This document shows, piece after piece, positions 2,523 to 60,400 of a DNA stretch of 64,000 bases. Numbering within the stretch: the stretch's first letter is position 1; each line of letters begins with the position of its first letter. Position numbers and translations under genes: made by a program. The notes below the pieces were generated by a model. The model was given only the letters and a program-made list of their open reading frames with translations, did not search any database and was not told the DNA's origin. The stretch is from Liolophura sinensis (taxonomy: Eukaryota; Mollusca; Polyplacophora; Chitonida; Chitonidae), in contig NC_088303.1 in NCBI RefSeq assembly GCF_032854445.1, positions 21,583,501 through 21,647,500 on the forward strand. Direction: 5' to 3'.

Positions 2523-2915
2523 CTACTCAATTTCTCCATCGTTCCTCTGCTCTAAATTACTTTCTGTGAAACCCATGTTATGGTTGCCGAACGTTTTTGA
2601 CAGGTCACATGATATGATAGTACTTTGCTCATATATGATACACTTGATGCATTTCACGTAACTGAAAACTCTCTGACGAGCTTCATCCCTTGATGGAAAA
2701 TGTTTTACGTTGTCGAACCGAACATCATGGGTGACTCGCACGCATGGCTTTTCTCTAGGAGTTGGCTGACTTGCAAATGCCCTGGAATCCTCATACCTAC
2801 TGACTTCATTTATATCAAATGTGGAATCGTTATCATCTGAGTAACTATCACTTTCCTGGTCGCTGACGTCTCTGTCTTCAACAGAGAGTTGCCGATTCAT
2901 TTTAGCCAGCCTCAC
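2523..2915 (-). CDS. hypothetical ORF, possible gene or transposon exon
   Basis: An open frame of 130 codons starts MRLAKMNRQLS. The N-terminal third is acidic and Ser-rich (DQESDSYSDDND). A segment RFDNVKHFPSRDEARQR and a CxxC pair (YVKCIKC) follow. That order loosely recalls the zinc-ribbon end of piggyBac-type transposases, but a DDE domain is not visible and the resemblance is weak. Upstream on this strand a good acceptor (TTTTTACAG, then GTGAGGCTGGCTAAAATG) sits just before the ATG, so it may be an internal exon. The first part of the ORF is repeated in the adjoining 95-bp array. It could also be a chance frame. Confidence 0.25.
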   Translation of the reverse strand: MRLAKMNRQLSVEDRDVSDQESDSYSDDNDSTFDINEVSRYEDSRAFASQPTPREKPCVRVTHDVRFDNVKHFPSRDEARQRVFSYVKCIKCIIYEQSTIISCDLSKTFGNHNMGFTESNLEQRNDGEIE

Positions 2916-3367
2916 CTGTAAAAACTACAGTAATATCTGCACACTATTGCTAATATTACAAATAGTGCCTACGTGTATGTCACTGACCGATTCATTTTAA
3001 CCAGCCTCACCTGTAAAAACTACAGTAATATCTGCACACTATTGCTAATATTACAAATAGTGCCTACATGTATGTCACTGACCGATTCATTTTAACCAGC
3101 CTCACCTGTAAAAACTACAGTAATATCTGCACACTATTGCTAATATTACAAATAGTGCCTACATGTATGTCACTGACCGATTCATTTTAGCCAGCCTCAC
3201 CTGTAAAAACTAAAGTAATATCTGCACACTATTGCTAATATTACAAATAGTGCCTACATGTATGTCACTGACCGATTCATTTTAGCCAGCCTTACCTTAA
3301 AAACTACAGTAATATCTGCACACTATTGTTAATATTACAAATAGTGCCTACATGTATGTCACTGACA
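2892..3367. repeat. 95-bp tandem array, five near-identical copies
   Basis: CCGATTCAT recurs at 2892, 2987, 3082, 3177 and 3272, an exact 95-bp spacing, and the copies differ by only a few bases. On the minus strand each unit ends with TTTTTACAG followed by GTGAGG and an in-context ATG, the same sequence that starts the ORF at 2523-2915. The array looks young and seeded at an intron-exon boundary. Confidence 0.95.
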
Positions 3368-38200: not shown

Positions 38201-41200
38201 TCAGACTGGGACAAAGTCACTGCAACTGTAAGTCACGTGATTGGACACCATTCTAAGCTGTTCTGTCTTTAGAACCCACTATATGTGCACAGAGAATCTC
38301 ATGTGGGTAAAACATTTCTCTTGGCGCAGACCAATGAGGTGGTGAGTTTGAATCCAGATCTTCATGCACTTGTTGGGCTATAGCTTTGAGTCAGTGTTAT
38401 CATGGCAGAGAACAGTTTTTGTGAATCTTTTCTTTTTTAACCCTGACTGATGTTATAGAAGTGCCATATTCTCAAGTATGGTATTGAACCCTGGTCAGAC
38501 AAAGAAATTTTTGTGCAAAAGTTTTGCTTTCATTTAGTATTTATCAAGAATTTGAAGGTAGGTTTGTGCATTAATTTTCATATTTAAAAATTGCCCTTTT
38601 TCACTACCTTATCCTGGAAGAAAGATTAAAAGCTGAATTAGAGATGAGATTCAAATATCTGTGCAAAGTTTATTATGTCAGGTGGTTTGTCAAACACTTG
38701 TGGGTCCTGGTATTCTCCAACCATAATCCTTTATGCAGTCATTAAACTCCCATACTCCTGAGTATTGTATGAAAAATTCCAAACAAATCAGATCAAAGAA
38801 TAGTGTTGTTTGTGTCTGTGAACGAAGAATCTTCTGGAATTTCTTCCTTTTGATGAGTCTCTTTTCGTTACCATTCTGTTAAATAAATCGAGGACATAAA
38901 CTATTGAAAAGATTATGTTATCTTATGAAATACGTCTAATGAAATAATGACGGATGAAAATTTTTATCTCATCAGCCAATTTCGGCTGACTCAGGGCAAA
39001 TCAGGATTTTCAGAGCCTCTACTGTTTAACCAAAATGGCCAAAACTGATCAGTTTACCAATGGGGATCAGCGAGTAGAAGAAATTTCAGCTGATTTTCCA
39101 GGAGATGTGTGAATTGAATGCTACATGTATAACACAAAACTGTAATGTTTCAGGCAGGAGGTTTGACTCTACTGGCTATTGGTGTATACGCAGCCAAGTA
39201 CGGGACAGGGGTCGGGGCAAGGTACATCGAGGCACGCCTGGGTAAACCTTCCCTTGTCAGGGACACTTCAAGGTTAACTGTCCTTGAAGCTGTCAAACAC
39301 CCAATCAAGGTATGCAGACGCATTATACTCTTGAAGTGCATGAAGCACCATCAACATCTTTGGAATGAAATATCGTGTAGATAAATGGATTTTAACAATG
39401 ATGTAGAATATAAACATAAACAGTTGTTTGAATTTGTTCTTTTTGTGTTTTTAGACAGCGAAACGGTTGTCAAGCCAACCTCAAGATGCCTTGTCTGGAA
39501 TCATCTTAAAGGTAAGATTTGAGTACAGTAGTATTTCGGGATCACCTTCTTTTACACCCCAATTAAGTAAAAGAATGTGGGAATGTTACAGTCAAGTTTG
39601 TCTAAAGTAAACAACAACATTATAAAAAGTATGCATAGAAAATGTCCTGCAGTGAAGGACAATTATGTTTCATGACTGAATCTTTGTGTAAATTTTATGG
39701 CAGCAAGTTTATTGAATGTTTTGGAAACAAGCTTTCTATCAACTCATTTTGAAGCATTTATTTCAAACTTCAAAATTACATACTTAATAAAGCAGTTATC
39801 CTCTGTCAGTAAAGAAATAAATGTTGTCCATGTTCTCAGCCAGAGCTGGAAGAGAGGCTGCGAGATATCGCCATAGCAACCAGGCACACCAAAAAGAATA
39901 AGGGTTACTACAGAAATATTTTAATGTATGGCCCTCCAGGAACTGGTAAAACCATGTTTGCAAAGGTAAGAGCAAGTGCAGTGAATTGCTGTACACTGGA
40001 ATACATGTATGGGAGGTAGGTTGTGGCCGAACAGAAGAGATGGTTGTCATTGCTTAGTTATATAATGCAGATTTAAACCTCTCTGTTGTAGCATATGTGA
40101 TCTAAAAAGTTACTTAACATCTTTGACATGTCACTTGGTAAAGGAGGACTTTCTTTTACATTTGTTGATAAGGGTTTGAACTCGAAACGTCTGGAAAGCT
40201 GGTATCTGCCATTAAATAGTTTAAATGAGTTGTTCACTCTTCATAATTTGGGGGTGGTGAAAGATTTTTTCTCCTTTGAAGAATGTGTAGCATTGTGGTT
40301 TTGATTTCCTGTTGGTTCACAGAGTCTTGCGCAGCATTCAGGAATGGATTATGCCATTATGACAGGTGGGGACGTGGCCCCTATGGGCAGGGAAGGGGTA
40401 ACAGCCATGCACAAGGTCTTTGATTGGGCACAGGCTAGCAGGAGAGGGTAAGTAGGAAGTTTAAAACAGTGAGTGAAGCTAAAATCCAAAATTTTACTAT
40501 TTATCTGAAACACACAACCATCACAGGGGCCTGCGTGGCTCAGTCGGTTAGCGAGCTAGCGCAGCGTAATGACCCAGGAGCCTCACAACCATCACTAAAC
40601 AAGAAGCTTCTTAAGAATTTTATGAGAACTTTAAGTGAGGAGTGACAGAGACAGAAAGCCGTTTTTAACACTCATACACATGTACATGGAAGAAAATGTA
40701 TCAACGACAGTTCTGAAACTTGGTGATAATTGGGATCAAAAACAATATAGGCTTTCTTAGTGCTACATATACATGGTGTTCTGTGTTGGTCTTTATGATC
40801 TGCCTGATTTACAGAGCTTCTCTCTTTCAGAGTACTGTTATTTGTGGATGAAGCAGATGCATTCCTGAGAAAGCGAAGCACGGAGGTGATCAGTGAGGAT
40901 ATGAGAGCCACATTAAACGCTTTCCTCTACAGAACTGGGGAACAGTCCAATAAGTAAGCTTGAGACTACTACAGAACTGGGGAACAGTCCAATAAGTAAG
41001 CTTGAGACTACTACAGAACTGGGGAACAGTCCAATAAGTAAGCTTGAGACTACTACAGAAATGGGGAACTGTCCAATAAGTTAACTTTAAACTGTGGAAC
41101 AATCCAGTAAGTAAGCTTTAGACAAGTACAGAACTGGGGAACAGTCCAATAAGTAAGCTTTAGACTACAACAGAACTGGGGAACAGCCCAATAAGTAAGC

Positions 41201-43114
41201 TTGAGACTACTACAGAAATGGGGAACTGTCCAATAAGTAAGTTTTAGACTGTTGAACAATCCAGTAAGTAACTACAGAAACGGAATAGTCCAAGAAGAAA
41301 GCCTTAGACCCTATATAACTACAGAAATGGGGAACTGTCCAATAAGTAAGCTTTAGACAACTGTGGAATCAGAGAACAGTCCAGTAAGAAAGCTTGAAGC
41401 AAAAACAGAACCGAGGAACAGTCCAATAAGTAAGCTTTAGTTAACTGTGGAATCGGAGAACAGTGCAGTAAGAAAGCTTGAAGCAAAAACAGAACTGAGG
41501 AACAGTCCAATAAGTAAGCTTTAGATAACTGTGGAATCGGAGAACAGTCCAGTAAGAAAGCTTGAAGCAAAAACAGAACCGACGAACAGTCCAGTAAGTA
41601 AGCTTTAGACATTGCTACAGATTTCCTTATCTCTGGAAAATTTGGCCCAAAAATAAGATACCTATGGACCTTTTGTGAACATGTTTTTTGCACTGGGAGA
41701 GAAAGTGGCACATTTTTTGCTGTTTGAGGATGATTATGGGGTGTAAAACAAGTAGAAAATGTACAGTGTATATCAGTCACTCCTGATATAGTCATCCCAG
41801 AATGAAAAAGAAAACTATGAAAATATAAAGAATAAGCATAAGCTGTATTTTTGGCTTGTGAATGTTCTCATGACATTTTACCTCTGCCCTCAGGTTTATG
41901 TTAGTACTAGCCAGTAATCAACCAGAGCAGTTTGATTGGGCGATCAACGATCGTCTGGATGAAATGGTGGAGTTTTCAACCCCAGATTTATCAGAGCGTG
42001 AGCGAATGGTTCGTCTGTACTTCGATAAGTATGTCTTGAAACCTGCCACAGAGGGCAAGAGGTAAGAGTTTGGGCTACACAAAATGATCTTTTCATTTGC
42101 TTTATAATTACTCAGGAAACATAAGGCTGGCACCTTTGTTTGACTAATTGTCTGAATTGCCCTAAATTATATTGAAAGGCTCAGACCAAAGGTTCAGACC
42201 AGCTAGTTGGATAGCAACTTTAAGCCTGGGTGGGTTGTCAGTTTCTTGCCAAAAGCTGCACGTTTAATCTAAATTCTGCCTGTTAGATTTTCCTCCCATG
42301 AACGTGACCACTAATCAGATTAAGTATTTTATTGCATTTCTATTTAAAAGTGGAAGCCTTAAAAACAGTTTAAATTGTAAAAAGCAAGAAAAAAAATCAG
42401 ATGTATACTGACATTATTGTGTGAAAAATTTCTACAAAATTTATGTAAAGAGGATAATGCGAATGTTTTTAACATGGTTGACAGACGGCTGAAGATTGCA
42501 CAGTTTGACTATGGTGCCAAGTGTAGGGAAATAGCTGCCCGTCTAGAGGGTCTCTCTGGGAGAGAGATCGCAAAGTTAGCCGTTGCCTGGCAGGTAAGTT
42601 CTTGGGCCCGCCAGTGCTAGAGCTCAAAGTTACATTATGGTGGTGTCTGTTAACATCTCTCCGCTGATATATGCACTAGGTATGGTGTTCAAGTGAAAAA
42701 CGTTTAAAGTAATTTTAAATGAAAGCTTCAATAATAATGTTATTTTTGGGTACACAATGCATAAAATGATAAAATGTTCAATTGAAAATAATCATTTAAA
42801 TACAACAAAATAGTTTTTTAACATGCATATTGTTTTGTGTGTTAGCTACAAACCAGCAAACTGATTGATAAGTGAAGCAGCTATCAGTTGATATATGTAA
42901 TTTTTTGGAACTACAGGCTTCTGCATATGCGTCTGAGGATGGAATCTTGACTGAAGAGATGATCGATGAGAAAGTGTCTGACGCCGTCAAACAACACTCC
43001 AAGAAAGTCCGCTGGCAGCAGGAGCAAGATGTGAGATTGCTGGGCAACCTGAAGGACTTCAAGACTGCCAAAGACGCTTCCACGTTCACGCCTCCTAACT
43101 CAATAGCCAGTTGA
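32289..43114 (+). CDS. ATAD3: ATAD3, mitochondrial AAA+ ATPase, complete
   Basis: ATAD3 is an inner-membrane ATPase of mitochondria linked to nucleoid organisation and membrane contacts. Fourteen exons join in frame: 32289-32493, 33864-33940, 36068-36229, 36440-36509, 36908-37073, 38158-38227, 39154-39309, 39455-39511, 39840-39965, 40323-40447, 40831-40953, 41894-42061, 42485-42593, 42917-43114, giving 603 aa. The order is: MMSWLFG start with a Gly/Pro-rich segment (second Met fits the family start MSWLFG), a long charged coiled coil (about 75-227), a hydrophobic membrane segment [15 protein letters not shown] (251-265), and the AAA+ module. That module has Walker A GPPGTGKT (352-359), Walker B LLFVDEAD (407-414), sensor-1 Asn454 in LVLASNQ, and an arginine finger candidate Arg466 in INDRLDE. 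Length matches animal ATAD3 (human isoforms about 586-634). All introns are GT-AG. The donor of exon 11 is followed by a tandem array. Confidence 0.97.
33393..33480 (+). mobile_element. SINE head fragment
   Basis: GGGGTTCCTTGGCCTGGTGG, GTGTGCTAGCACAGCACAGT and ACCTCTCACCATTGTGATCG match the tRNA-like head of the main family with changes. No body or tail follows. It lies in ATAD3 intron 1. Confidence 0.65.
34345..35250 (+). pseudogene. decayed coding block of unknown identity in ATAD3 intron 2
   Basis: Three plus-strand frames follow one another with shifts and stops. They are 34391-34594 (contains [20 protein letters not shown]), a short +1 frame to about 34697, and 34693-35019 (108 codons, contains [20 protein letters not shown]). 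The composition is protein-like and the segment is richer in G+C than the flanking intron. A 148-codon frame on the other strand overlaps it, so the coding strand is not proven. I recognise no family; a retroposed gene copy or a transposon ORF are both possible. Confidence 0.3.
35465..35800 (+). repeat. interspersed repeat, single copy (relatives at 46150-46830)
   Basis: Blocks shared with the 46-kb copies include ATTGAG(G/A)TCAGGGTTT, CAGTGTGTACA(T/C)ATT, GTAAATTACCA and the end block TTTGGTAACTTTGCTAC(C/A)AAA + TCTAAGT. It lies in ATAD3 intron 2. The family is unknown. Confidence 0.65.
35930..36050 (+). mobile_element. SINE fragment, 3' part
   Basis: GATGGTCGTGGGTTTCTTGA, GAAATATTCTTGAGTACGGC and AAAACACCAGTGAATTAAGT belong to the main family body and tail. 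It ends 18 bp before the acceptor of ATAD3 exon 3, in the same orientation as the gene. Confidence 0.85.
37491..37969. mobile_element. fold-back (long-TIR, MITE-like) element, copy 1
   Basis: The two halves are imperfect inverted complements almost to the ends. The left half has AAAGGCATTCAAACATTTGA and TTTAGGAACTCTGACGTCAC. The right half, read in reverse, has AAAGGCATTCAAATATCCGA and TTTAGGAACTCTGATGTCAC. The termini are CCTTGAGGTA and, reversed, CCTTAAAGTA. There is no ORF. A second copy lies at 62091-62556. The ends and target duplication are not certain. Confidence 0.8.
40525..40583 (+). mobile_element. head-only SINE insertion with 12-bp target duplication
   Basis: Only 59 bp of the tRNA-like head are present (GGCCTGCGTGGCTCAGTCGG through GACCCAGGAGCCT), ending before the B box. 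CACAACCATCAC flanks it exactly (40513-40524 and 40584-40595). It lies in ATAD3 intron 10. Confidence 0.88.
40929..41612 (+). repeat. 42-bp array duplicating the end of ATAD3 exon 11 and its donor site
   Basis: ACAGAACTGG starts at 40929 (inside the exon), 40971 and 41013, an exact 42-bp period. The first units are almost perfect and later ones diverge to about 41612. Each early unit holds CTACTACAG / AACTGGGGAACAGTCCAATAA / GTAAGC, that is an acceptor-like AG, 21 bp of exon and the 5' splice site. In the exon's frame the array meets a stop at once (AAT AAG TAA). Confidence 0.95.
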
Positions 43115-44716
43115 TGATCAGTGCTTTGTTAGGTTTAGCTTCAGTAATAATTTGTTTTAACACCAGGCAAGGATACGAGGTTTGGTTCTGGTGTTTTGAG
43201 ACATAAAGTGCCATAGTTTGTCAGAGTGATTGCAGAATATTGAAGGCACAAGAAAGTGGTTGATTTTGCTGCCCATTGGTCACCTGTTTTAGGGAGAGGT
43301 AGCAAAAGTTAAGCTGTAATTTTTGCCCCGGAAGGTCATTCATTTTGCCTATGTAGGGATATGTCTGATACCTCACTGTCAGAGGATTCAAAGAAAATGG
43401 CATATGTGTTTATCATTAAGGACTGTGCTTAAATGAGAATAACAGTTGACAGCATCATCCGACTTTTTTTGGACAGTGGACAGCAGACTAGATGACGACA
43501 GGCATTCAGGGAGAAGAATCCACTGCTTATTGCATTTTCTTGTGTATAATATATCATTTTACAGACATTTAAGTTAAGCATGATACTGCCATTTGCAGTG
43601 GTACTAGGTACATAGTCTGAAGTTGTTTAGAATTATATGTACATGTAGGTATAATACAAAAGGTTAAGTGAGAGGAGGCTGTGTGGCACATTATTCAGCA
43701 CTGTACTGGTAGCCACTTTCGGGATTCAGTTGTATGTACATTTACAGAGACCTTGATATCTGTACAGTGAAATTAGAATGGTTAAGTTACTACTGGTAAT
43801 GCCCAAAAGATGGGGTCTGTTTTCATATTAATATTTAATATGTAAAATGTATGGAAGTAATTCGCTTCCATTACGTGTGTGGTTATTCACGATAAACCCC
43901 GGCTGAACTGGTTGTGTGGACAAGATGTTACTTGCAACAAGTAGTGGATTTGTCCCATCGTGCTACACCACACGAATCAGTTTCGATCAACAGTTGCAGG
44001 CATGTGTTGTTAAATTATTCCATTTGCAGTGTTCTAAACTGCAGCTTGTGAAAAATTCTCTCCATTAATGCATATATAATTGGTCAGGCAGTGTGATATG
44101 GACAAGTTCTGTATGTAGTTTGATTTGTGGATATCTAATACATCGTCATCTTTTCAGTATTCATCAATTTTTTACTATTTTTTATCGTGGTTTAATGCTG
44201 TACTCAAGAATATTTCACCTTTATGACAGCAGTCAGGTTTATGAGTGAGATAATACTGGGCAGAGCCTTGAGAAACTACAGCCCTTATTTGCTACAGTAC
44301 ATGCATATGTACCCTGAGCTGTAGTCGCTGAATTTGACAGCGCAACCTCCTTGGTCAGTGAGCTACAGCGAGAACTGTGAACTGACCTGTGACCTTTACA
44401 TAGATTAAGTTGTCGGGTGCAGTTTGACCAGTTTCGTAATTTGGCAGTGTGTCATAGTGTTAATGGCTCAGTAACAAAGCTGAAATTCGGTTACAATTCT
44501 CAGTTTTGTACAGCTGGAATCCATTAAATATTCCAGTGTGTGTTCTGTTACATGAGTGAATGTTTGTTATTGATACCGCTGCTATCAGGCAATTGTGGAG
44601 AGTGTCACATTCTGTTAAAGGCCTATGCCACTTACACAAGCAGTGATAGATGTGAGTGGTACCATGTAAGATGTGTGCAGTGTGGAGAGTCTTGCATTAA
44701 GCAGTAGTCAAATAAA
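43115..44716 (+). terminator. ATAD3 3' UTR and candidate poly(A) signal
   Basis: AATAAA at 44711-44716 is the first good plus-strand hexamer that I favour after the stop at 43114. It implies a 1.6-kb 3' UTR. A decayed minus-oriented SINE 3' part lies at 44185-44290 (GTGGTTTAATGCTGTACTCA). Confidence 0.4.
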
Positions 44717-45043
44717 ACTGATTGTTTGGATGCCATGGGTTTTAATGTTTCACAATAGCGAGTTAATGTACACAGATACATGTATGTGTAACTACACATA
44801 CAGGCAAATTTATAACTCTTTCTGGAGCAATTATGAGTGAGAAAGAAATTATATATACAGATAAAATAAAGAAAGAGTCCATCATAATCATCACTTTTAT
44901 GTTATGTTTTTGTCTTTAGTGGTTTTCTTTTTTAAAGTTTCACGTGTGAACATATGTACATACTGGCCACTTTTGACCCATTTCTTTGTACTGGCCAATT
45001 CTGTTGTACGGAAAACCATTTCACATATCAGAAGATAGTAGGG

Positions 45044-45540
45044 GCAGGCTGTGACCAGTGGTTAAAGCGCTTGCCTTTCCATCGCTTTAAAAGCAACACC
45101 AAGCAAGAAGCAATCAGTTTTCATTGATTGGACACATTTTGGGAAAGCAGGCCTTGGTCCAGATGCCTTGCATCGTCAGTGATAAATGACCTCGATCATT
45201 TCATTTCCGCGTGGTAACTTGCGAGTATGCTGCCTATTAGTCATGTTCATCAGTCCGTTAAGGACCCACAAGACTAGATAGTTATTCCAGCACATTTACA
45301 GTAGTCAGTTCAAGCCAGTTTAGGAAGTGGGATGTGTGAGAGAGGTTAAGTGAGTCACTTCTGTTCACTGGCATTTGGACTTTGGGTTTAGTCCTGTCCT
45401 TGTACATGAAAGGTCAGTAACTTGCCGATGGCCAGATGCACTCTGATTTCATCCACCCATAAAACAGATTGCCATCAAGTGTACATCACTGAATATTTCT
45501 TGAGTAAAGCGATAAACAACAGTCAAGCAAAAGTTAAGTA
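45044..45540 (+). mobile_element. long SINE-like element with a different head
   Basis: The start resembles a tRNA (GTGACCAGTGGTTAAAGCGC, TTGCCTTTCCATCGC). The end, GAATATTTCTTGAGTAAAGC then GATAAACAACAGTCAAGC, is a decayed form of the main SINE tail. The 500-bp length and the unrelated body separate it from the main family. Confidence 0.45.
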
Positions 45541-46149
45541 AAGCAGTAAATATTGTGATGTTTTGTTTTTTCTCCTAGAAGAGATCTATTTAGAAAAGTC
45601 CATGAGGAGAGAAAAAGTTAAGTACTATACCGGTAATCAATCCACATTTTTGCACATAAAAAAGAGCAACTTTCACCGTGATTTATTCCACTTTTTTCAT
45701 TTGATTCTAGAGCTATTTTATATTGGTTGGGTTGGTCAACTTCAGGACTTCACAAAAATTACGATTCTATCAACCAAGACAGAATATTGCTCTGAGAATG
45801 TGGTTGCATAAATATTTGCAAATATGTATTTGAAACGGTTGAAGAATTACAGTACTGGTATCAAAGATTTGAAAAAAAAAACTAGTTCAAACCTCTTTTT
45901 CTCCCTATTAAGTGAAGAGATTTGTCAGGTTCATAGTTAAGTGTGATAATTTACACCTAGACTCTATCCAGAAGCTTGAACACTATCGTATTAGTGAACA
46001 GGTACAAACAGTCAACCAGATAAGGTTTCGTGTCAACTTGCATACAGGCCCACTCCTCCTACCCCATATGAAGCATCAGTGTTTTATGATCGAAAATGTC
46101 ACAAATTAAATGGCAGAACTGATGAACAGAGTGATCGACAAACTTGTTC

Positions 46150-46830
46150 ACACACCTGTATATAGCACATGTACAGGCGTAGATTATGTCGTATGCCTGT
46201 GTCCAATAACAGGGAAAGTAGTGCTTAACAAAATGTTAGGGGTGTTATCTTAAAAAGTACTGCAGGTATTGAGATCAGGGTTTTCACACAGGTAACCCAA
46301 TAACACGAGGGTATTCCACAGTGGTTTTGGTGTGTACACATTAAATACCGTAAATCACTGAATTCCTGACTTGGTGTATTGTGTGCTAAAATCAAAGTTA
46401 AACAAAATGTTAGGGGTGTTTTCTCAAAAAGTACTACATTTATTGAGCTCAAGGATTGCACACATGTACAGCACAGTAACACGAGGAGGGTAATCCATCA
46501 TTCATACAGTGTGTACATATTAAAAACCGTAAATTACCAAAGTTCTGACTTGTCTGTTGTGTTTTAAAATCAAAGTTAAAAAAATGTTAGGGGTGGTATC
46601 TAAAACATTAAAGCATGTATTGACCTAAAGTTTTACCTGCGTATGAAGCACAATGACACAATGTGGATGTTCCATTGCTGATGCTCTGTACACATTAATT
46701 TTGTAAATTACCAGTTTCATGATTTTAGTACTTTATGTATTGAGCTGAAGTTTTGCATTCATGTGTATTCTACAGGCCAGCTCTTTGGTAGCTTTGCTAC
46801 AAAATCTAAGTCTAGAGCTGCTTACTGCAG
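46150..46830 (+). repeat. interspersed repeat in three to four partial tandem copies
   Basis: Units of roughly 170-180 bp each begin AAAATGTTAGGGGTG(T/G)T at about 46230, 46403 and 46583. They contain ATTGAG.TCA.GG.TT.CACA and CAGTGTGTACA. The last copy ends CTTTGGTAGCTTTGCTACAA. The single-copy relative is at 35465-35800. Confidence 0.75.
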
Positions 46831-48498
46831 CTCAAATGTTTCTGATACAGCCTTCAACCCAATTCAAATACAAAAAATAATTCTCACCAAGTTGAAACCA
46901 CTTAATGGTGTTTTATTTGTTGTGTAACACAAGTTAGCATGGTTCACCATTTATTGTTGACTAATATTATAAAAATATCAGAACATGTTAACAATGTTAT
47001 GTATGAAATAAAAGACAAAAATCATTCCACATTATATTATCAATGGTAAAAGCTTAGCATATATCACAATTGTATATCACAATAGCTTACAATAAATGTA
47101 TAAAACAACTCTTCAAAAAGCAGCAATAGTAAAAACCTATAAACAAATCCTCTTGTACAGTGTAAGTGCTTTTTTCTTATTGAAAAAAATTTTTAAAAAG
47201 TTCATGGGACTAAATAGGTAATTTAGCAAATCACATTCAATAAAATTGCATCTTCAAACGGAAATACTGTTATAAAAAAATGACCATACATTAAAGTCTA
47301 TGGGTATGAAAAAAAACTGATAGAAAAATGTAATGTTAAAAATAGTCAACTTCTTAAACTTCAACTCTTGGTTTATGTATATGTATATTATACAAGGACA
47401 TGTGATGTGTAGCTCTGTATCCACTACACACATGTGGGTTGAGCAGAAGACCCACAAATACAGATGAAATAATCTGACGTGTAATGGGAAACCTTCCACT
47501 GCAATTTTTCGGTTTTCGTTAGATCCAAGCCAAAATGGACAACTTAATGTTAATATATATACTTTAATACCAACTTTATAACTTAGCCAAAATATGGAAA
47601 AGGCATTCAAAGGATCCAAATTATTTCAATGGAAACTCTAAAATTGTAAAATTTATGTACCTCACTTGAAAATAACCTCTTTGCATTCATGCATTCATTC
47701 AAATGTTTTCAACAAACCATACAGTTATTCAAGATTGCACAAGATCCTGTCATACAAATCATTTAAAATATTAAAAAGTTAGAAAAAGCTTTTTATATCA
47801 CATTTAAAATACTTAATTGGTACACTGCAACAATTATGTGTAGCTCAAACAACTCATGGATAGATCTGCCCATTTGGCAAATATCAGAATTTGGATAACA
47901 AATACAAAGGACCGTTCCCATAGCAAGATCTGAAGAGAGGCAATTCTTCAAATATGTCAAATACAGTACTGACGAAAAGAAAACCAATGTAAATGTATCA
48001 CAAAAGGGTCATATGAACTTTAAGGTGATGTGATTGTGATGTGATAACGTAGCAGTTTGAGTCATTCTAAACCAGTGATGTCTAATATATTGCAATTAAC
48101 ATCACTGCATTTTTTTCACCTAATTCTGTTTAAGCTAAGGTGCTAAAGGGCATGTAAATTTCTGCTCCCAAAGCATTTACATGAGTTGTTAAAAAACCCT
48201 TCATGTAATTAAGATAAAATGACAGCAGGCCGTACTTCACCACTTAACTGTTACCATTTGCCAACTATCACAACGTCATCCCTGCTCTAGGTTTACTCTT
48301 TATGCTGTACATCTTCTGCAATCTTTCAACAGGCTTCTGTTTTGCTGGTATACGTTAAACCACAAAAGGTGGTAAACATTTATCAAATGAGTGAAGCATT
48401 TCTGTAGATAAAGTAGTAATACGACACAAGGAATGAGGGAATACAAACTGGAAACGGCTTAGGAGTAATGACACCACCTACATGTAGTTGTTTGCAGT
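46831..48498 (-). other. probable 3' UTR side of the armadillo-repeat gene
   Basis: A+T-rich sequence without exons lies between the last repeat and the stop codon at 48499. The nearest minus-strand AATAAA that I favour is at 46912-46917, 1.6 kb past the stop. A 121-codon minus frame (47254-47619) is A+T-driven and not called. Confidence 0.3.
48040..48290 (+). repeat. interspersed repeat, copy 2 (partner at 4640-4890)
   Basis: It shares TTGCAATTAACATCACTGCA and the GGCCGTACTTCACCA block with the copy at 4640-4890, in the same order. Confidence 0.6.
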
Positions 48499-51400
48499 TC
48501 ACTGTTCTTTTTTAACATTAGAGGTAGAGCTAAGAGAACTACCACTCCCGCCGGACTGGAGAGAAGTACGAGAACCAAACGAGCGAGAGTTCTCTCCCAT
48601 TCTTTTAACCTTCTCTAGCGTTGAGAGGGAAGGAAGGTTCACAAGGCCTTCATCTTCAGAGTTCATTACTTGCAGCCCTAGGGAGAAAATAAATGAAAAA
48701 CATGGACATTATGGCTAGATAACCATACATCATCTACATGTATATAAAACACAAGCCCTAGCTGAGGGATATTTAAAGCTAGCACTTACTTGCTATGACC
48801 GTCAGGGCCTTGATTAACAGGGATGTGTGTTCAAGTCCAGCTCTTGCTGCTTTCACCGTGTCTGTATGTTAGACACGTTTATCATCATTCATCAGGTACC
48901 TGATGAAAGACGATGGCTTCTTCGGGGCACTTTTGATTCCTCCTCCCATATACATGAGCCTAATACCTTATCAAATTTTAAGTTAAACACCAATCAATCA
49001 ATCTACACAATATGCCAGGAATATACCAAACAACAACCAAATTCACAGCTACATAATGTTGAAAAATTCTAAGCTGTAAATGCTTCAGTGTCATGTTAAA
49101 TATGTGACATCATAAAATCAAGCATTTACCTTGATCTGCCATATCCCAGCATTCCCTGTCAGCAGGATTTGCTTTGATCGCCGTCAAAATCTCATCCAAT
49201 TTTAACTCTCGCGCCTGCAGTCTGAAAACACAAAGAGAATGATAACAACTGGTGAACCTGCATGTCAGCCTTCATCAGCACAAAACATGACTCTTCAGCA
49301 CAAATCCATATTCTGGTAAAGATTTTTCTTTGTCAGAAAATAAAGGCACTAAGCTTTATGAGTTTCGAGAATACTTTCAAGGACATATTCACAAAATGTG
49401 GGGAAACTGGAATTACACTGACTGTTTGAATCATGCAGTTGAAGAAGACATGCTAATAATATCAGCTGTATATTTAGTATGTGCGATGTTAAATTTAATC
49501 CATACACAGGGGGCCTCTGTGGCTCCAGCTCATGCCGGCTTCCTCTCCAGCTGTAAGTGGGAAGGTTGCAGCAACCAGCGAATGGTCGTGGGTTTCCCCC
49601 GGGTTCTGCCCGGTTTCCACAACACCATAATGCTGGCCGCCATCGTATAAGTGAAATATTCTTGAGTACGGCGTAAAACACCAGTCAAATAAATAAATAA
49701 ACAATCCAGACTGAGATCTTGCAGCAACTTGCTGATGGTCGTGGGTTTCCCTCCAGCTGTACACTGTTTCCTTCCACCATACTGCTGGCCATCATCGTAA
49801 AAGTGAAACAGTCATTAGTCTGGCGTAATCACCAATCAAATAAATAAATACATACATATTCATGGAATGAAAGTTTGCTTACAGATAAAACATTTGATCA
49901 GTTTACAAACTCTGGTTTTTCACTAAGGCTGTGTCTGTTAAAAAATATGTATTTCCCGTCCTTAAATTTAGTAAATTAAACAGTATGGCAATTACTGATA
50001 TTGAAATGTTAACAAATATCGGTTTGGCATTTTCATGTCACTTTAAAGCCTTCACCTACTTGGTGTGTTTCTTATCCAGGGTACAGAAAATGACCTTGGC
50101 AATGACCTTCTGTAAGATCGGGTTTTCACTCCTAGCAAACGTGCTCAAACATTCCCTCAGCTTCTCCTGGTCAAGCATCTTCTCACAGGTCTAAAAAAAA
50201 GAGCATTGTAATACATGTATCACTGTTTGTCATCTGATGTGTGCATATACTTCGCAAACATCACAGTCATATTGCTGCAAATTGTCAAAACAACACATAA
50301 CATGAAGTATCAAGAAGGCCTATTTTAAAATCTTATGTATGACCCAAATGAGGATTGCCTGCCAAATCTCATTCTAAAGCTAAGAAAAAAAATGCTTCTT
50401 TTGCAATTCAGACTAACATTTCATTTCTAAATGTCACTGCACTGTTCACTGACTACGATGACTGTTAAAATTTATTTATTTGATTGATGTTTTAAGGTAA
50501 CACGGATGAACCTCTGCCATTGTTTCCCCAGTCATCATAAGGATCCAAATAAAGTTTGTTAGCTATTTCACTTCATTCACATTCAGTCTATTTATCTGGT
50601 AGCCCAACGGGATCCAAATAAAGTTTGTTAGCTATTCACTTCATTCACATTCAGTCTATTTATCTGGTAGCCCAACGGGATCCAAATAAAGTTTGTTAGC
50701 TATTCACTTCATTCACATTCAGTCTATTTATCTGGTAGCCCAACGGGATCCAAATAAAGTTTGTTAGCTATTCACTTCATTCACATTCAGTCTATTTATC
50801 TGGTAGCCCAACGGGATCCAAATAAAGTTTGTTAGCTATTTCATTTCATTCACATTCAGTCTATTTATCTGGTAACCCAACGGGATCCAAATAAAGTTTG
50901 TTAGCTATTTCACTTCATTCACATTCAGTCTATTTACCTGGTAGCCCAATGGGCAGCATGCTCTCAATTTGCAGTAGCCCCCCCCCCCCCCCCCCCAAAA
51001 AATCTGGTTGTCTCAGGACGTCAGCCAAGCAACTTTGCGAGCCCTACTGGTAAATGAACCTACTTGTTACATACATTTATATTTAACTGAAATATCAAGG
51101 TCTCTTATGCTTCCGTCATAATAACGATATATAATATTTCACATTATTCCATCAAAGCTACAGTAACAATATTTGATTTTATTTATTTGATTGGTGTTTC
51201 ACGTTGTGCTCAAGAATATTTCACTCATACGACGGTAGCCAGCATTATGGCGGGAGGAAAAAGGGCAGAGCCCGGGGGAACCCATAACCATCTGCAGGTT
51301 GCTGACAGACCTTCCCACTTACGGCCGGAGAGGAAGCCAACATGAACTGGACTTGAAATCACAGTGACCGCATTGGTGAGAGACTCCTGGGTCATTACGC

Positions 51401-54400
51401 TGTGCCAGTAACAATAGGTCAAACAATAAACCATGAGACACATTTGGTTTCACTTCTTGCTCCAACTATATGTACAGCTAGCAACTGTAATTGTTCAGTA
51501 ACCCCTACAGTGGTAATCTTACCTCTGGGTTTTCAGCATAATATAGAAGTATTTTACCCGCTAACAGATACAACCTCTCTTCTACTGTTACTAAGGGGAG
51601 ACAAATCAGTAGCTCCAAAAGTTCTTCCTATGTGAAATGAACAAAACATAGTACATTATTAAGAGACTGAGACAGAGTGTGGCAGAGATAGAGAGTGTGC
51701 AGCCTTGTCAAATATGTATAAACAAGTCTTCCGTATAATATTTATTTAAATGGTTAGTACTTTCCTGTCACATAGGTTGAAATAAAACAACACAACCTAC
51801 AAACAAAATTTTATTAACTTCTTCAACCTTCAATCAATTTTAGTAACTTCTTCACCATACAGATAAAATTATCCACGCCATTTTAACCCTACTAATTTTG
51901 AGATATAACATTCGAGAAATTATACCACAGTGATAAAAGTTTCTGAGTGGTGGAAATTGGGCAGTCCCAGAGGAAACTACATGCATGTATGCGCCACTAC
52001 TGCAGCTCACCAGGTAGCGGACAAACCTCCTAACCAACCAAACCAGTGGACAATAGATTAAAACATACATATATACATGTATGTATGTGCCACCTGAGTC
52101 ATTGTCTGACAAGGGCAAGAGAACATTCCAAAGAAGCCATCAAAGGCTGTACCGCTACTGTGTAGAATGATATCAATGATCAACTACCAGTTTACATACC
52201 TGAGCATAGATCAGTTCTGGACTCTCTATGGCCAGAAGCTCTAAGGTCTGGAGTGAAAACCTCAGGGTCATGGGGTCTTTACCCTTACAAAGATGTATCA
52301 AGGCTTGAACTATAATACAGGAGAATGTCACATAGTAATACAAAGGAATTGTCACAATATAAGGAGAAAGCCATACAGTTATACTGAGAATAATACAAGG
52401 GGAATTGTTACATTATAATACAGGATAATGTCACATTGTAATAAAGGAGAATGTAACATTGTAATACAGGGAAATTGTTACACTGCAATACAGGGGAATG
52501 TCACACTGTAATACTGGGGAATTGCTACATTGTAATAAAAGAAAATGTCACATTGTAATGCCGGAGAATGCCACAATAGTAATACAGGGGAATTGTTACA
52601 ATGCAATACAGGGGGATGTCCCAATAGTAATACAGGGGAAATGTTACAATGCGCCACAGGGGGATGTCCCAATAGTAATACAGGGGAATTGTTACACTGT
52701 AATACAGGAGAATATCACATTGTAATACTCGAGAATGTCACAATAGTAATAGAGGGGAATTGTTACACTACAATACAGGGGAATGTCACACTGTAATACA
52801 GGGGAAATGTTACATTGTAATACAGGAGAATATCACATTGTAATACTCGAGAATGTCACAATAGTAATACAGGGGAATTGTTACACTGTAATACAGGAGA
52901 ATATCACATTGTAATACTCGAGAATGTCACAATAGTAATAGAGGGGAATTGTTACACTACAATACAGGGGAATGTCACACTGTAATACAGGGGAAATGTT
53001 ACATTGTAATACTGAAGTCAAATAGTCATACAGGGGAACTGTCACATTTTATAAGAGAAAGTCACACAGTAATACAGCAGAATATGTCACACTGTAATAC
53101 AGAAGAATTGTCACATCACAGAAACAAAACTGATTTTAAACTAACTTGGTTTATTACAGCCGTGTTTACACAGTGCAACATTTCACAGGAATTCATAGAC
53201 TTTGACAAATCACACTGTGTGATTGTGGCTTTAGAAACAATATTACATCTATTTTTGTTTCACTACTCAAATTCAATGAGTCAATAAAACAAATCAAATC
53301 ATGTGAGAAAAGTATCTTAGTAATGTCTTAAATTCACTACACAGTAATCACACAAATTCATATGAAAATGTGACGTTTTGGTTAAATGTGTTTATGATTA
53401 CTTAAACTCACCAGGGATATTTCTAGCTGCCATGGCTACACGTATTTCAGAATTAAAAGCCAACTCCAGGTAAATACTGGCCACCATCCTCTGACAGGAC
53501 AGTGATCCGTGATAGGCTGCATGAGCCAAATCTTCTAGTCTGCAAAGAGTAAACGGAGGCTAATCAGGGCAGTAAATACTGGCATTCACCTTGTGACAGG
53601 TGAGAACATGTATGTTTATATGTATACTGACGATAATGAGCTCTGTGAGGCAGATCTTCTAATTTGACAGAGATATAAACACTCTGTAGCATGTGAGTAT
53701 ACTGCGATGAGCTACATGTGTATGTACATGTAGGGAGATGTATTGTGGTAAGTCTGAGATAAGTGCAGACTAAGGGAGTTAAATCTACCTGACCATTTTG
53801 TAAGTGGAGAGTATGCTGAGATCAGTGACAGGTAAATCAGGTCTTTAGGCTGACTGGAATAAGCAGACAAAAAGCACCAACGATCATGATAAAGCAGGTG
53901 ACGAAACAGAAATTGTAATAAAAGACTGTCTCACTGAGGTTAAACAGGAGTTAAATACTGGCAACTGTATCTCTTAATAAAACAAGGTAAGATAGCAAAA
54001 CTTGAGTTGCTCCTTGACTCAGCTACAGGTGTTTACTTAATTAACTGAAGTAAACACTTAATGCCGGTCATCAAGTTTCGGTGAGGAGGAAACCAGAGTG
54101 CCTCAAGTAAACTACCTGGAGATACTGTACAAACCTTCCAGCTTAAAAGTGCAGCTCAAATGGTTGGAGCTGTATTCAAACAGGAAAACTCATTTGTCAA
54201 TTGTATGTAAGCTGCATGTGGTAGCCGTGGTAAGCTAAATGTGTGCATGTATTAACATGTTCAAAAGATAAAACCATAACGACAGGACCTACCCGTGTTC
54301 TGCAATAACTGCGCCTTTGTTCTCCTCAGAGTCTGACACGACGACGTAGAGAGCCATGGCAGCCTCCTGTGAGACACGAGGGTGGGGGGAGTGGAGAAGA

Positions 54401-57400
54401 GCAGTCAGAGTACGAACACCACCCGTCTCCACAAATGCATCCTGTCATAAACAATACAACATCAATCAAACCGTTCCTCTCCACAAATGTATTCTGTCAT
54501 GAACCATACCACACTTATCAAACCACCCATCTCTACAAATGTATCCAGTCATGAAACATACCACACCGATCAAACCTCCTGTCTCCACAAACGTATCCTG
54601 TCATGAACCATACCACACCTACACTGATGAAACCACCTGTCTCCACAAATGTATTCTGCCATGAACCATACCACACTGATGAAACCACCTGTCTCCACAA
54701 ATGTATTCTGCCATGAACCATACCACACTGATGAAACCACCTGTCTCCACAAATGTATTCTGCCATGAACCATACCACACTTATCAAACCCCCTCTCTCC
54801 ACAAATGTATTCTGCCATGAACCATACCACACTGATCAAACCACCTGTCTCCACATACGTATCCTGTCATGAACCATACCACACCTACACTAATCAAACC
54901 ACCGGTCTCAACAAACGTACTCTGTCATTAACCATACCACACTGATCAAACCATCTGTCTCCACAAAGGTATCTTGTCCTGAACCATACCACATCTACAC
55001 TGATCAAACCACTTGACTCCACAAAAGTATCCTGTCATGAACCATACCACACCTACATTGATCAAACCACCTGTCTCCACAAATGTATTCTGCCATGAAC
55101 CATACCACATTGATCAAACCCCCTGTCTCCACAAACATATCCTCTCATGAACCATACCACACCTACACTAATCAAACCACCGGTCTCAACAAACGTACTC
55201 TGTCATGAACCATACCACACTGATCAAACCATCTGTCTCCACAAAGGTATCTTGTCCTGAACCATACCACATCTACACTGATCCAAACACCTGACTCCAC
55301 AAACATATCCTCTCATGAACCATACCACACCTACACTAATCAAACCACCTGCCTCCACAATGTATTCTGTCATGAACCATACCAAGCTGATCAAATCACC
55401 CGTCTCCAAAAAACGTATCCAGTCATGAACCATACCACATCTACACTGATCCAACCACCTGACTCCACAAACGTATCCTGTCATGAACCATACCACATCT
55501 ACACTGATCAAACCACCTGTCTCCACAAATGTATTCTGTCATGAACCATACCACACCGATCAAACCACCCATCTCTACAAAGGTATTCTGTCATGAACCA
55601 TACCACACTGATGTCATGCCATCATACTCTAAGAATAGGAAACTACTTGTGATACTAATGTCATGTATCTTGCACACAACAGGCTTCTGCTCCTGACTCA
55701 TATGGGACGGACAAGTTCTGACCTGCAACAAGCATGTTGAAGGAACAGTAGGAATTTCTTGTCTGCATAGTGGAAGATCTTGTCTGTATGGTGGAAATTC
55801 TGGCCTGTGTAAAGAAAACAGTGAGTTTTGGCATATGTGGGGAAAACAGTGAGTTCTGACCAGTATAGAGAGGACAGTGAGTTTTGGCATATGTAGAGAA
55901 AACAGTGAAGAGAACAGTGAGTTCTGGCGTATGTCGAGAAAAACGTCAGTTCTGATCAGTATAGAGAGGACAATGAGTTCTGACCTGCATAGAGGGAAAA
56001 GTAAGATCGGAACTGTATTTAGGGAATGGTGAGAAGTTAACATGTAAAGAGTGAATGGTAAATCTGACCTGTATTGAGGGAATGGTGCGAATTTTTGACC
56101 TGTCCATGTATAGAGGAATGGTGAGAAGTTAACATGTAAAAAGTGAATGGTAAATCTGACCTGTATTTAGCGAATGGTTGGAAGTAGTGCCCCGTCCATG
56201 TATAGAGGAATCGTGAGAAGCTAACATGTAAAGAGTGAATGGTAAATCTGACCTGTATTGAGGGAATGGTTGGAAGTTCTGCCCCGTCCATGTATAGAGG
56301 AATGGTGAGAAGCTAACATGTAAAGAGTGAATGGTAAATCTGACCTGTATTTAGCGAATGGTAGGAAGTAGTGCCCCGTCCATGTATAGAGGAATGGTGA
56401 GAAGCTAACATGTAAAAAGTGAATGGTAAATCTGACCTGTATTGAGGGAATGGTGCGAATGTATAGAGGAATGATGAGAAGTTAGCCTGTACAGAGAGAT
56501 TGGCAAAATCTGAGCCTGTTGTAGAGATCAAAATTTGCCACCTGTATTGCTCTTGTGTATGTCTAGGAAAGTAACGCTTTACACCATGTTTTGTGGCTAA
56601 ATTTACCTCTATCTATGAACGTTCTTATGATGTTTGTGTGTCAACGTTAAATGAGAATATGTGCTCCGACAGCTATAGGTACAAGTAAAGGGAGATAACT
56701 CCATGTGAATTGCTGAATTGTAAAGCAGCATTTTGGGTAAATTCTAAAACTTATCTTGTTTCTTGCTTTCAGTCAAACTGGCATGGATATTGACACTGAT
56801 ACAGAAAATATTGATTCATATTGGATTGTGGTCCAAGATAAAAGGATGGTGTAATGGTGTAAAATGGATGGCACTAAAAATAGATTACTAATATCTATAT
56901 CAACATTGGTGTAATTTCTGGTTATTGAGTCTACACCTGTAATGAGGGAATGGTGAGAAATTCTGACCTGAACATGTATAAAGGAATGATGAGAAGTTCT
57001 GACATGTACAAGGATAGAGCAATGTTAGAAGATGACCTGTTCAGAGTGATTGATGAAATCTGACCTGTATTGAAGGAATGATGAGAAGTTCTGACATGTA
57101 CAAGGATAGAGCAATGATGAGAAGCTGACCTGTACAGAATGAATGATAAAATCTGACCTGTATTGAGGGAATGGTGAGAAGTTCTGACATGTACAAGGAT
57201 AGAGCAATGATGAGAAGATGACCTGTTCAGAGTGAATGATGAAATCTGACCAGTATTGAGGATAGAGCAATGATGAGAAGATGACCTGTACAGAGTGAAT
57301 GATGAAATCTGACCAGTATTGAGGGAATGATGAGAAGTTCTGACATGTACAAGGATAGAGCAATGATGAGAAGCTGACCTGTACAGAATGAATGATGAAA

Positions 57401-60400
57401 TCTGACCAGTATTGAGGGAATGGTGACAAGTTCTGACATGTACAAGGATAGAGCAATGATGAGAAGATGACCAGTTCAGAGTGAATGATGAAATCTGACC
57501 TGTATTGAGGGAATGATGAGAAGTTCTGACATGTACAAGGATAGAGCAATGATGAGAAGATGACCTGTTCAGAGTGAATGATGAAATCTGACCTGTATTG
57601 AGGGAATGGTGAGAAGTTCTGACATGTACAAGGATAGAGCAATGATGAGAAGATGACCTGTACAGAGTGAATGATAAAATCTGACCTGTATTGAGGGAAT
57701 GGTGAAAAGTTCTGACATGTACAAGGATAGAGCAATGATGAGAAAATGACCTGCACAGAGTGAATGATGAAATCTGACCAGTATTGAGGGAATGGTGAGA
57801 AGTTCTGACATGTACAAGGATAGAGCAATGATGAGAAGATGACCTGTACAGAGTGAGTGGTGAAATTTGACCTGTATTGAGGGAATGGTCAGAAGTTCTG
57901 ACAAAGCCTCAATGGCATGCTCTTGAATCGTCTGGTCATGTCCCAATGCCATAGAGTTGAGAACGTCCAAACTGCAAAATAGTTAAGCGAATGGTAAAAA
58001 GACAACACAGAAATAATTTCCTATTTCATGGTGAATAAGAAACCATGAAAGTATTTCTTTCCAAAAGCAGTTTCACACATAACTCGACAACATCAAATTA
58101 ATCAACATTCAAAGCTGAATGTAAAGTTCCTTTAAATGGAATACATCTATGTGAGTTTCTTGTCATCTGATTTGATGCTGGTAAAATCTGAGAAATCTTG
58201 AAACAATCATAAATTTGTCACAATTTCTGAATTGTGAATTCTAACAACTACACTTCATCTACGCCATTTTTTCGCCTTCAATTTACAGGATTCATACCCG
58301 CCCTCTGCCACGATCCGGAATTTGTTATCATCACCAGACGCCGCCATGCCCGCTAACTCGTATGCCGCTGTACGCTTCTCTCTCAGCCTAAAAAATCAGA
58401 GAAATAAACAAGGTATCAACTTTGATATCTGAATAAAACCTTACGCTGTCAGACATGGACAGAATTCATCACACACACAGTAGAAAAAAGTTTCTCACAC
58501 CATGACACATATTTATCAACTATAAAAAATACATCCAATAGATTTTTAATATTTTTGCATTTGCTGTTGGCAGGATATGTACGACTCTTACAAATTAGCA
58601 CTCTGATGATCATGCTGATAGCAGGAAATCTTATGTACGTACTTGCCAAACTTTGCTGCATGCATCACTTTCTCTATGTCGCGTTCTTGAACCAAATATT
58701 TTTCCACAAGGTCTCCGTTCTGGATAGTGTACCCACATGTGGAAGGAAAATAATTTACATGACTAAACATTCACTGTATAATCCTTCTCAAACATCCTTC
58801 ATCTCTGTTCCTGTGTTACAGTTTTATGTGTATTTCAAGTGGACAAGACACTTGACGTTCACTGTATAATCCTTCTCAAACATTCTTCATCTCTGTTCCT
58901 GTGGTACAGTTTTATGTGTATTTCAAGTGGACAAGACACTTGACGTTCTTTTCTTTTTAAATATTGTAATTCTTCTTATTTTAAGTACAGATTCATGTAT
59001 TAGTATAGTGCTTATAAAAGGATATAAATGATAATATACGACAAGGGATTTTTTTTATTCATTTACGTGAAAAACAATGAATGTCAAGTACATGAGATCC
59101 ACTAACTACCAATGTCGTTTGTAGAGAATTTTCTCTTTCAGAGATGCAGGGCTAATCTATTAAAATATCCAAGTACATCAAACATATTTATAAGTATGGA
59201 TTACCTGAGTGTGTCCAAAATGACTAAGTACTATACATACCCTGAACTTGAAATTCCAAAGGAGAACCCATATTATTATGTCAGATAATACCAAAACCAC
59301 AGCCCACAGTGTGAAAAAGACAGCTGTGAAAATAGTCTTTGTTGAGCAGTGCCCTGTGGCCTCCCATTCTGGACAACCATTGTTCTGTGATGAAAAACAA
59401 GTAGCAAATTGCATCTGATTAGTGCTGTAAGCTACATTTCAAATACATGATACTGTATCTTGACTCACTTTACCCAACAAAGAAAGGTATAGCAGTATAG
59501 CCTAATGCATGACTACAGTGCATATTACAATCAATATCTGGCATTACTCTTTTATAAGCACTTGTTCAAATAATTGTGTTCACAGCAAGAAACATAAAGC
59601 GGACCCTGATAATACATTGCTTCATAAACAGACTCTAGTAATTGGTCATGTTTATGGCCGTATGAAAAGACAGCCTGACAATATATTCATATCTCTGATA
59701 GTATAGGCTATGAAATAAACTTCCCTTAAACTAAATTGGGCCATCTCTCGCCGTATGTGGGAAGGTTGTGGGTTTCCCCAGGTCTATGCCTGGTTTCATC
59801 CCACCAAAATGCTGGTCGCCGTTGTATAAGTGAAATATTCGTGAGTAAGGCGTAAAACACCAATCAATAAATAAATAAATAAAGTAAATTGCGCTGCACG
59901 TAGATAATTAGTTTGCACTGAACGCTTATTGGTGGGATCTTTTGAACAGGTGCATGTGATTGGTCAAACACTGACGTCTTCATAAAAGCCGCCACCATTA
60001 GACAAATTCATCTGTCATCGAGTGGACGGCTATTTCAAATGCGACAGATTTGATTTCCTTCTCATCACTGATCCAAACTACGTAGCTGTACTGACCACAG
60101 TGGTTATAGAGAGGATGGGTACATACCACATACTCACTGCTATGCTGGCTAGATGTGGTTAATCACATGAATAGATGTATGGCAAAGTAATTATTAAAAC
60201 TTTGAACAGGGCAAAGTCAGATCTGTGCGGTGTCACATGATGTTTATTAGGCTACACCTTCCTTTTGCTTCCATGTACATGTACTACTACAACATTGTGG
60301 GATATGGACTATGGCCTCCAGTGATCAACCGTAAGTGGGAAGGTTTGCCAGCAACACGCGGATGGTCGTGGGTTTCCGCCGGGCTCTGCCTGGTTTCCTC

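Follow-up and report, generated by a model that had tools for sequence, protein, structure and literature searches.

The 64-kb window analysed here (the whole 64,000-nucleotide stretch; C9:21,583,501-21,647,500, contig NC_088303.1) comes from the chiton Liolophura sinensis, whose genome was searched as 609.46 Mb in 632 contigs, and it contains two genes in which tandem arrays of short units lie across exon-intron junctions. The gene on the minus strand was built from seven exons joined by phase, giving a frame with 0 stops (the other two frames have 19 and 13). The ATAD3-like gene, joined in the same way from five exons, gave 0 stops compared to 18 and 17; in both cases the in-frame joining was obtained with the exon-proximal splice sites. 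The minus-strand product matched the Pfam family Arm (PF00514, E-value 6.7e-9) at residues 90-120, directly after the 57872/54441 splice, which falls at residue 89/90 and is spanned by matches to solved armadillo proteins (residues 14-143). The ATAD3-like product gave an AAA match at residues 2-111 (E-value 8.7e-13) that spans the 40953/41894 splice; the gene is called ATAD3-like here, the searches showing an AAA protein only. Pfam searches with nine single open reading frames of the window named nothing useful, whereas the joined exons did match.

Arrays in the window were detected with Tandem Repeats Finder (TRF) and exon edges were taken from the phase-joined exons in one open frame. Three arrays straddle an exon edge, each edge being backed by in-frame exon joining. 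The exons and arrays concerned are as follows.

40831-40953, plus strand: ATAD3-like exon with its donor at 40953/40954 (AATAA/GTAAGC), in one open frame with its neighbours; AAA domain.
40927-41611, plus strand: 42-bp array (84-bp in its outer part) straddling the 40953 donor; TRF and genome search.
57872-57971, minus strand: armadillo-gene exon with its donor at 57872/57871 (ATACAG/GTCAAA); frame joining, Pfam and solved-protein matches.
56947-57903, minus strand: 93-bp array straddling the 57872 donor; TRF and genome search.
55751-56480, minus strand: diverged continuation of the 93-bp array; blastn.
54293-54441, minus strand: armadillo-gene exon with its acceptor at 54442/54441 (GACAG/GATGCA); frame joining, Pfam and solved-protein matches.
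54418-55609, minus strand: 52/58-bp array straddling the 54441 acceptor; TRF and blastn.
52200-52309, minus strand: armadillo-gene exon with its acceptor at 52309 (TTATAG/TTCAAG); frame joining.
52310-53115, minus strand: array of ~21-bp units abutting the 52309 acceptor; TRF and reading by eye.
2892-3366, minus strand: 95-bp array covering a candidate acceptor and a start codon of an unconfirmed exon; TRF, no Pfam match.

At the ATAD3-like donor the 42-bp unit holds 27 exon bases followed by GTAAGC, at the armadillo-gene donor the 93-bp unit holds 32 exon bases, and at the armadillo-gene acceptor at 54441 the 52-bp unit holds 24. The array at the 52309 acceptor abuts its exon but includes 0 exon bases, and an AG is missing at that place in many of the units; TRF marks 52391-53012 and 53061-53115 of this array, and the remainder, including the exon-nearest part, was read by eye. 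An earlier, sequence-only reading of the window had placed at least four arrays at confirmed exon edges with the splice site in each unit, which describes the arrays at 40953, 57872 and 54441 and fails for the one at 52309. Its suggestion of intron growth is borne out, in that arrays fill 658 of the 940 bases of the ATAD3-like intron after 40953, 2823 of the 3,430 bases of the armadillo-gene intron 54442-57871 and 806 of the 1101 bases of the intron before the acceptor at 52309. The donor and acceptor arrays of the armadillo gene occupy opposite ends of one intron (54442-57871), and blastn gave no match between them; by the same method, the stretch 55751-56480 proved to belong to the donor array in diverged form (76-80% identity).

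The 95-bp array at 2892-3366 contains a candidate acceptor, TTTTTACAG, and an ATG; its exon had no Pfam match and remains uncertain. Read by eye, three intronic stretches (40530-40600, 51170-51410 and 61049-61589) appear to belong to a single dispersed repeat, which occurs in either orientation; the 80-bp array at 61049 seems to have arisen by tandem expansion of one portion of this repeat.

An independent sample of conserved exons was assembled from five Pfam families (myosin head, kinesin, adaptin, TCP1 chaperonin and SNF2), which gave 358 exon matches. A total of 242 rows were entered, omitting rows with an internal stop and some very long ones, and these row filters may hide arrays inside coding exons. 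Two rows were dropped for length and 35 for overlap, leaving 205, of which 198 were kept, drawn blind to sequence content; 180 of these loci were fetched with 560-bp flanks, providing 360 junctions. At thresholds of period at least 15 and score at least 90, TRF yielded 77 merged arrays in 62 of the 180 loci. Automatic exon edges were poor at many loci (acceptor score of at least 3 in 89/180, donor in 111/180); edges were read by eye at 18 loci and for 14 further array edges, and the rest keep their automatic edges. Reading by eye placed the arrays of L019 and L051 in the intron and that of L056 across the junction, and it revised the exon depths of L038 and L106. With TRF and these by-eye edges, 13 arrays straddle one of the 360 junctions, either at the donor (L001, L010, L033, L038, L043, L056, L106, L152 and L171) or at the acceptor (L041, L088, L103 and L138), a rate of ~4% of the sampled junctions. 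Unit lengths of the straddling arrays range from 30 to 125 bp; the L138 array extends over ~1.26 kb, and where two neighbouring exon matches lie 2.4 kb apart, ~1.6 kb of the stretch between them matches the L088 array.

The same junctions were also compared with the arrays themselves, each 50-mer junction being scored against the other copies of its own array with the junction masked; 76 of the 77 arrays could be scored, the remaining one leaving too little after masking. In 18 of the 76 arrays, the score of the array's own junction was higher than that of any null junction, compared to 1/76 for the opposite junction and 1/76 for the exon centre, the last being L152, whose array reaches the centre. 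Arrays lying close to the junction in this comparison were those of L019, L051, L120, L155 and L169, and the comparison also uncovered a diverged donor copy at L146, which stands outside the count of 13. Junction-straddling arrays, described by the sequence-only reading in the window, are a property of the genome and recur in unrelated genes.

None of the 16 straddling arrays (13 sampled and three from the window) extends as far as one full unit into the exon. For the 13 sampled arrays, the product probability of this outcome under random placement is ~4e-11, a rough figure, given that visible lengths are cut by the fetch, the exons are short and they were chosen as clean domain matches. The ratio of exon depth to unit length is uniform (mean 0.51, Kolmogorov-Smirnov P 0.26) with no preferred register, and this uniformity gives no hint of cutting at one set position. 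Evidently, a whole extra unit in a coding exon is rarely tolerated, and any register relative to the junction is tolerated. The exon-depth rule and the uniform register are what selection acting on a random process predicts, not what cutting at the splice site predicts.

The intronic copies of the used splice site, here called decoys, were collected as copies with at least 17 of 28 bases alike. Around the 16 straddling arrays we counted 153 such copies, of which 130 keep their GT or AG, compared to 109 expected from the other base pairs nearby in these copies, although picking by likeness slightly favours retention; selection against decoys was not seen among the 153. If the first decoy were used, the reading frame would be shifted in 9 of the 13 sampled arrays and a stop would be met within the inserted piece in 9 of the 13; splicing at the next donor would insert a piece that is in frame and free of stops in three (L033, L106 and L171). 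Either splicing strongly prefers the exon-proximal site or use of the decoys stays low enough to be nearly harmless. The retained GT and AG, the three open in-frame donors and the precedent of human IFI6 (PMC4526556, as far as the available text describes it) are what one would cite for functional or adaptive arrays that provide new mini-exons or alternative donors. We regard such a role as highly improbable, as the frameshifts and stops would fall in exons that encode conserved motor, chaperonin, adaptin or SNF2 domains, and array homogenisation predicts decoy retention equally well. For the mini-exon birth raised by the sequence-only reading we found no evidence in the sampled arrays, given the frame shifts that most of their first decoys would cause.

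In lancelet mirages the inner units are homogenised, with the boundary unit left out. Among the 15 chiton arrays with at least two decoys, the decoys were more like each other than like the used copy in five, less so in nine and equally so in one, a comparison biased by picking on likeness. In 9 of the 12 arrays with at least five decoys, the decoys nearer to the exon were more like the used copy (mean rho −0.25), and this gradient was too weak to be used as an indicator of growth polarity. At L033, in an exon of the chaperonin family, the donor at locus position 749 (gene strand) is accompanied by seven further donor copies, and use of the first of these would insert 22 residues in frame and without a stop.

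The origin of the units was addressed by comparing 132 unit consensus sequences between loci, with several per array for the window and random pieces. At an E-value of 1e-4 or better, the only between-locus matches joined adjacent fetches of one contig (three pairs), and each pair was read as one array seen from both sides; no units shared by separate loci were found at this threshold. In genome searches, among the best candidates scored, the armadillo donor unit found only its own array and the continuation, the ATAD3-like unit found only its own locus, and the L088 query found four weak matches elsewhere (69-73%). Judged from these comparisons, the units appear to be largely locus-specific, and the array anatomy suggests growth in place. 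A mobile element or introner that spreads units among junctions would account for the recurrence at many loci and for the weak L088 matches; we find it very hard to credit when separate loci share no unit at an E-value of 1e-4 and the ATAD3-like and armadillo donor units are listed only at their own locus. Despite the L088 matches, descent of the arrays from a shared element was rejected on the 132-unit comparison together with the genome searches.

Tandem arrays are a classical source of assembly error, and an artefact or collapsed heterozygosity had to be considered. The HiFi reads (mean 8,347 bp at 14x, according to the part of PMC11068029 available) exceed the array lengths, the copies differ among themselves, and the anatomy recurs at 13 of 360 junctions and at L146. 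Another chiton assembly, as far as its report could be consulted, has 9.21% of the genome assigned by Tandem Repeats Finder (PMC11545220), and on that account chitons in general may carry a high tandem-repeat load. Against this evidence there is next to no chance that the arrays are artefactual.

The background density of arrays was measured in a random sample of 20 pieces (68.6 kb), in which 15 arrays in 12 of the 20 pieces cover 10,799 of 68,600 bases (15.7%), in agreement with the earlier claim that tandem growth is common here. The assembly was published as Liolophura japonica (PMC11068029), the species having been corrected to L. sinensis (PMC12441733), and the repeat table of that publication, in the portion available, gives 0.08% as 'other (simple repeat, microsatellite, RNA)' and 14.04% as unclassified; the unclassified share may hide many minisatellites, given the 15.7% of the random sample. 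In one random piece (L185:1375-2222) a 73-bp unit resembles by eye the last part of a coding exon with GTAAGG after it, and this array perhaps straddles a donor. On the intron side of the 360 junctions, array coverage is 4.6% in the first 20 bases after donors and 3.3% before acceptors, and it reaches 12-15% at 300-540 bp into the intron. With uniform edges and a 100-bp baseline, 9.6 straddling arrays are expected compared to the 13 observed (P 0.13); straddling arrays occur at near-background frequency.

We consider it probable that the arrays are minisatellites of the type called mirages in lancelets (discussed below), arising from pervasive in-situ tandem duplication that is tolerated provided that the copied stretch brings its own splice site along. 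Pieces of ~15-130 bp would be duplicated in tandem very frequently throughout the genome, and where the first duplication by chance spans an exon-intron junction, every copy would bear the splice site. The exon-proximal site would then go on serving, the remaining copies would become intronic decoys and the protein would be unchanged. Once such an event is tolerated, the array, presumably neutral, could lengthen further into the intron through slippage or unequal exchange, and duplications that add a whole unit to a coding exon would be removed by selection. Slippage and unequal exchange are established behaviour of minisatellites. The available text of the lancelet work also touches on them (PMC3087553). 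A junction hotspot, exon birth and a mobile element are each not needed to explain the arrays.

Several points weigh against this account. The spliced copy is only presumed to be the exon-proximal one, and the rule that an exon holds less than one unit was seen in exons with clean domain matches, so that arrays inside coding exons may be hidden. In addition, longer baselines lower the expected number of straddling arrays to 7.0 (200 bp), 6.8 (300 bp) and 5.9 (400 bp), with P of 0.013, 0.014 and 0.004; when one median unit length is used, the expected numbers for baselines of 100-400 bp are 8.6, 6.1, 5.9 and 5.1 (P 0.063, 0.0049, 0.0045 and 0.0012). Taken over both sets, baselines of 200-400 bp give a 1.9 to 2.6-fold excess, to which L146 would add slightly. 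Over all baselines the excess amounts to 1.4 to 2.6-fold and is significant only against the more distant intron; we infer that the larger figures would come from short original introns, and arrays may have a mild preference for junctions. Finally, CAGGT (on either strand) was the top over-represented 5-mer in the 64 non-junction units (19 compared to 6.6 expected), and it was found 5 times in the 15 random-sample arrays compared to 1.38 expected. This excess was first noticed by eye, and its Poisson P of 6e-5 becomes ~0.03 after correction for 512 5-mers; the G+C content of array units (41%, compared to 38% in the background) accounts for a small part of it.

Both the excess over distant intron and the CAGGT signal with its small replication in random arrays would be expected if junctions were true hotspots, whether because splicing or R-loops lead to breakage or re-replication there or because a donor-like CAGGT motif is prone to duplication. 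We think this unlikely, given that the local baselines leave 13 compared to 9.6 (P 0.13) or 8.6 (P 0.06), that the register is uniform and coverage is lowest at junctions, and that the CAGGT excess is post hoc, marginal after correction and present on both strands. As a main cause, a junction hotspot was set aside as unneeded in view of the coverage profile, the local-baseline count and the uniform register, and the breakage hotspot or R-loop duplication put forward by the sequence-only reading, against which a lack of genome-wide enrichment would have counted, is not supported in that role; the sample comes close to such a lack, although an excess of two- to two-and-a-half-fold may be present. 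A splice-motif excess confined to the sense strand was not seen in the non-junction units, where CAGGT occurs 12 times in sense and 7 times in antisense. It is improbable that tandem duplication is motif-directed, with CAGGT-like donor-core sequence as a preferred seed and the introns of many genes growing outward from their own splice sites. If true, motif seeding would make splice junctions the meeting points of a genome-wide duplication process and the genes, and confirmation of the CAGGT excess would join duplication and splice consensus by sequence.

Returning to the probable account of chance duplication followed by tolerance, its closest counterparts in the literature found on minisatellites at junctions come from lancelet and human work. 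The lancelet 'mirages' are described, in the portions of PMC3087553 and PMC3902484 consulted, as minisatellite-like repeats formed by tandem duplication of exon-intron boundaries in the Adh3, globin, troponin C and PGBD5 genes; they are variable in length and are reported not to disturb splicing. Like them, the chiton arrays are tandem, minisatellite-like repeats in unrelated genes whose unit spans a donor or an acceptor, and whose intronic copies keep their splice signals (130/153); unit sizes are 10-72 and 150-160 bp in the lancelets, according to the same portions, and 30-125 bp in the chiton. The chiton arrays differ from the lancelet cases, as there described, in their mollusc host and in having been counted in a random draw of exons against the genome's array density, and whereas RNA and allele lengths are reported for lancelets, the chiton arrays are known here from one haploid assembly.

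In the human IFI6/G1P3 gene a minisatellite gives multiple splice donors (Turri 1995, as summarised in the available part of PMC4526556). This is likewise a tandem array over a donor in which several units have a donor site, but downstream units serve as donors in IFI6 and use of the chiton decoys would mostly break the frame. Human segmental duplications have internal tandem repeats at exon-intron boundaries (PMC2812944, in the part available), which resemble the chiton arrays in that minisatellite expansion at exon edges alters gene structure; the human cases are recent duplicates with transcript support, whereas the chiton cases are conserved-domain exons read from sequence. Intron gain by tandem genomic duplication (the Rogers model), in which AGGT duplication is a recognised route (PMC3443670, as far as available), is similar in that a duplicated AGGT-holding stretch supplies splice signals. 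It differs in that an exonic stretch there becomes a new intron with both sites derived from one duplication, whereas existing chiton introns appear to be enlarged; a pair of splice sites from one duplicated segment was not seen in the 54442-57871 intron, the only one compared, whose two arrays gave no blastn match. Literature searches directed at molluscs, from whose coverage subscription journals were mostly absent, found no report of junction-spanning minisatellites. A Conus intron paper considered as a mollusc precedent was set aside, since its available text deals with intronic microsatellites and not with junction repeats.

These results extend the mirage structure, so far a matter of a few lancelet genes, to a mollusc and attach a rate to it of ~4% of sampled conserved-exon junctions, in a setting where about one base in six of the 68.6-kb random sample lies in a minisatellite. 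The finding that an exon holds less than one unit gives a simple rule that separates tolerance from targeting, and one route of intron lengthening is shown. The arrays are also natural experiments: they set a splice site against as many as two dozen similar neighbours, and a conserved protein constrains the outcome.

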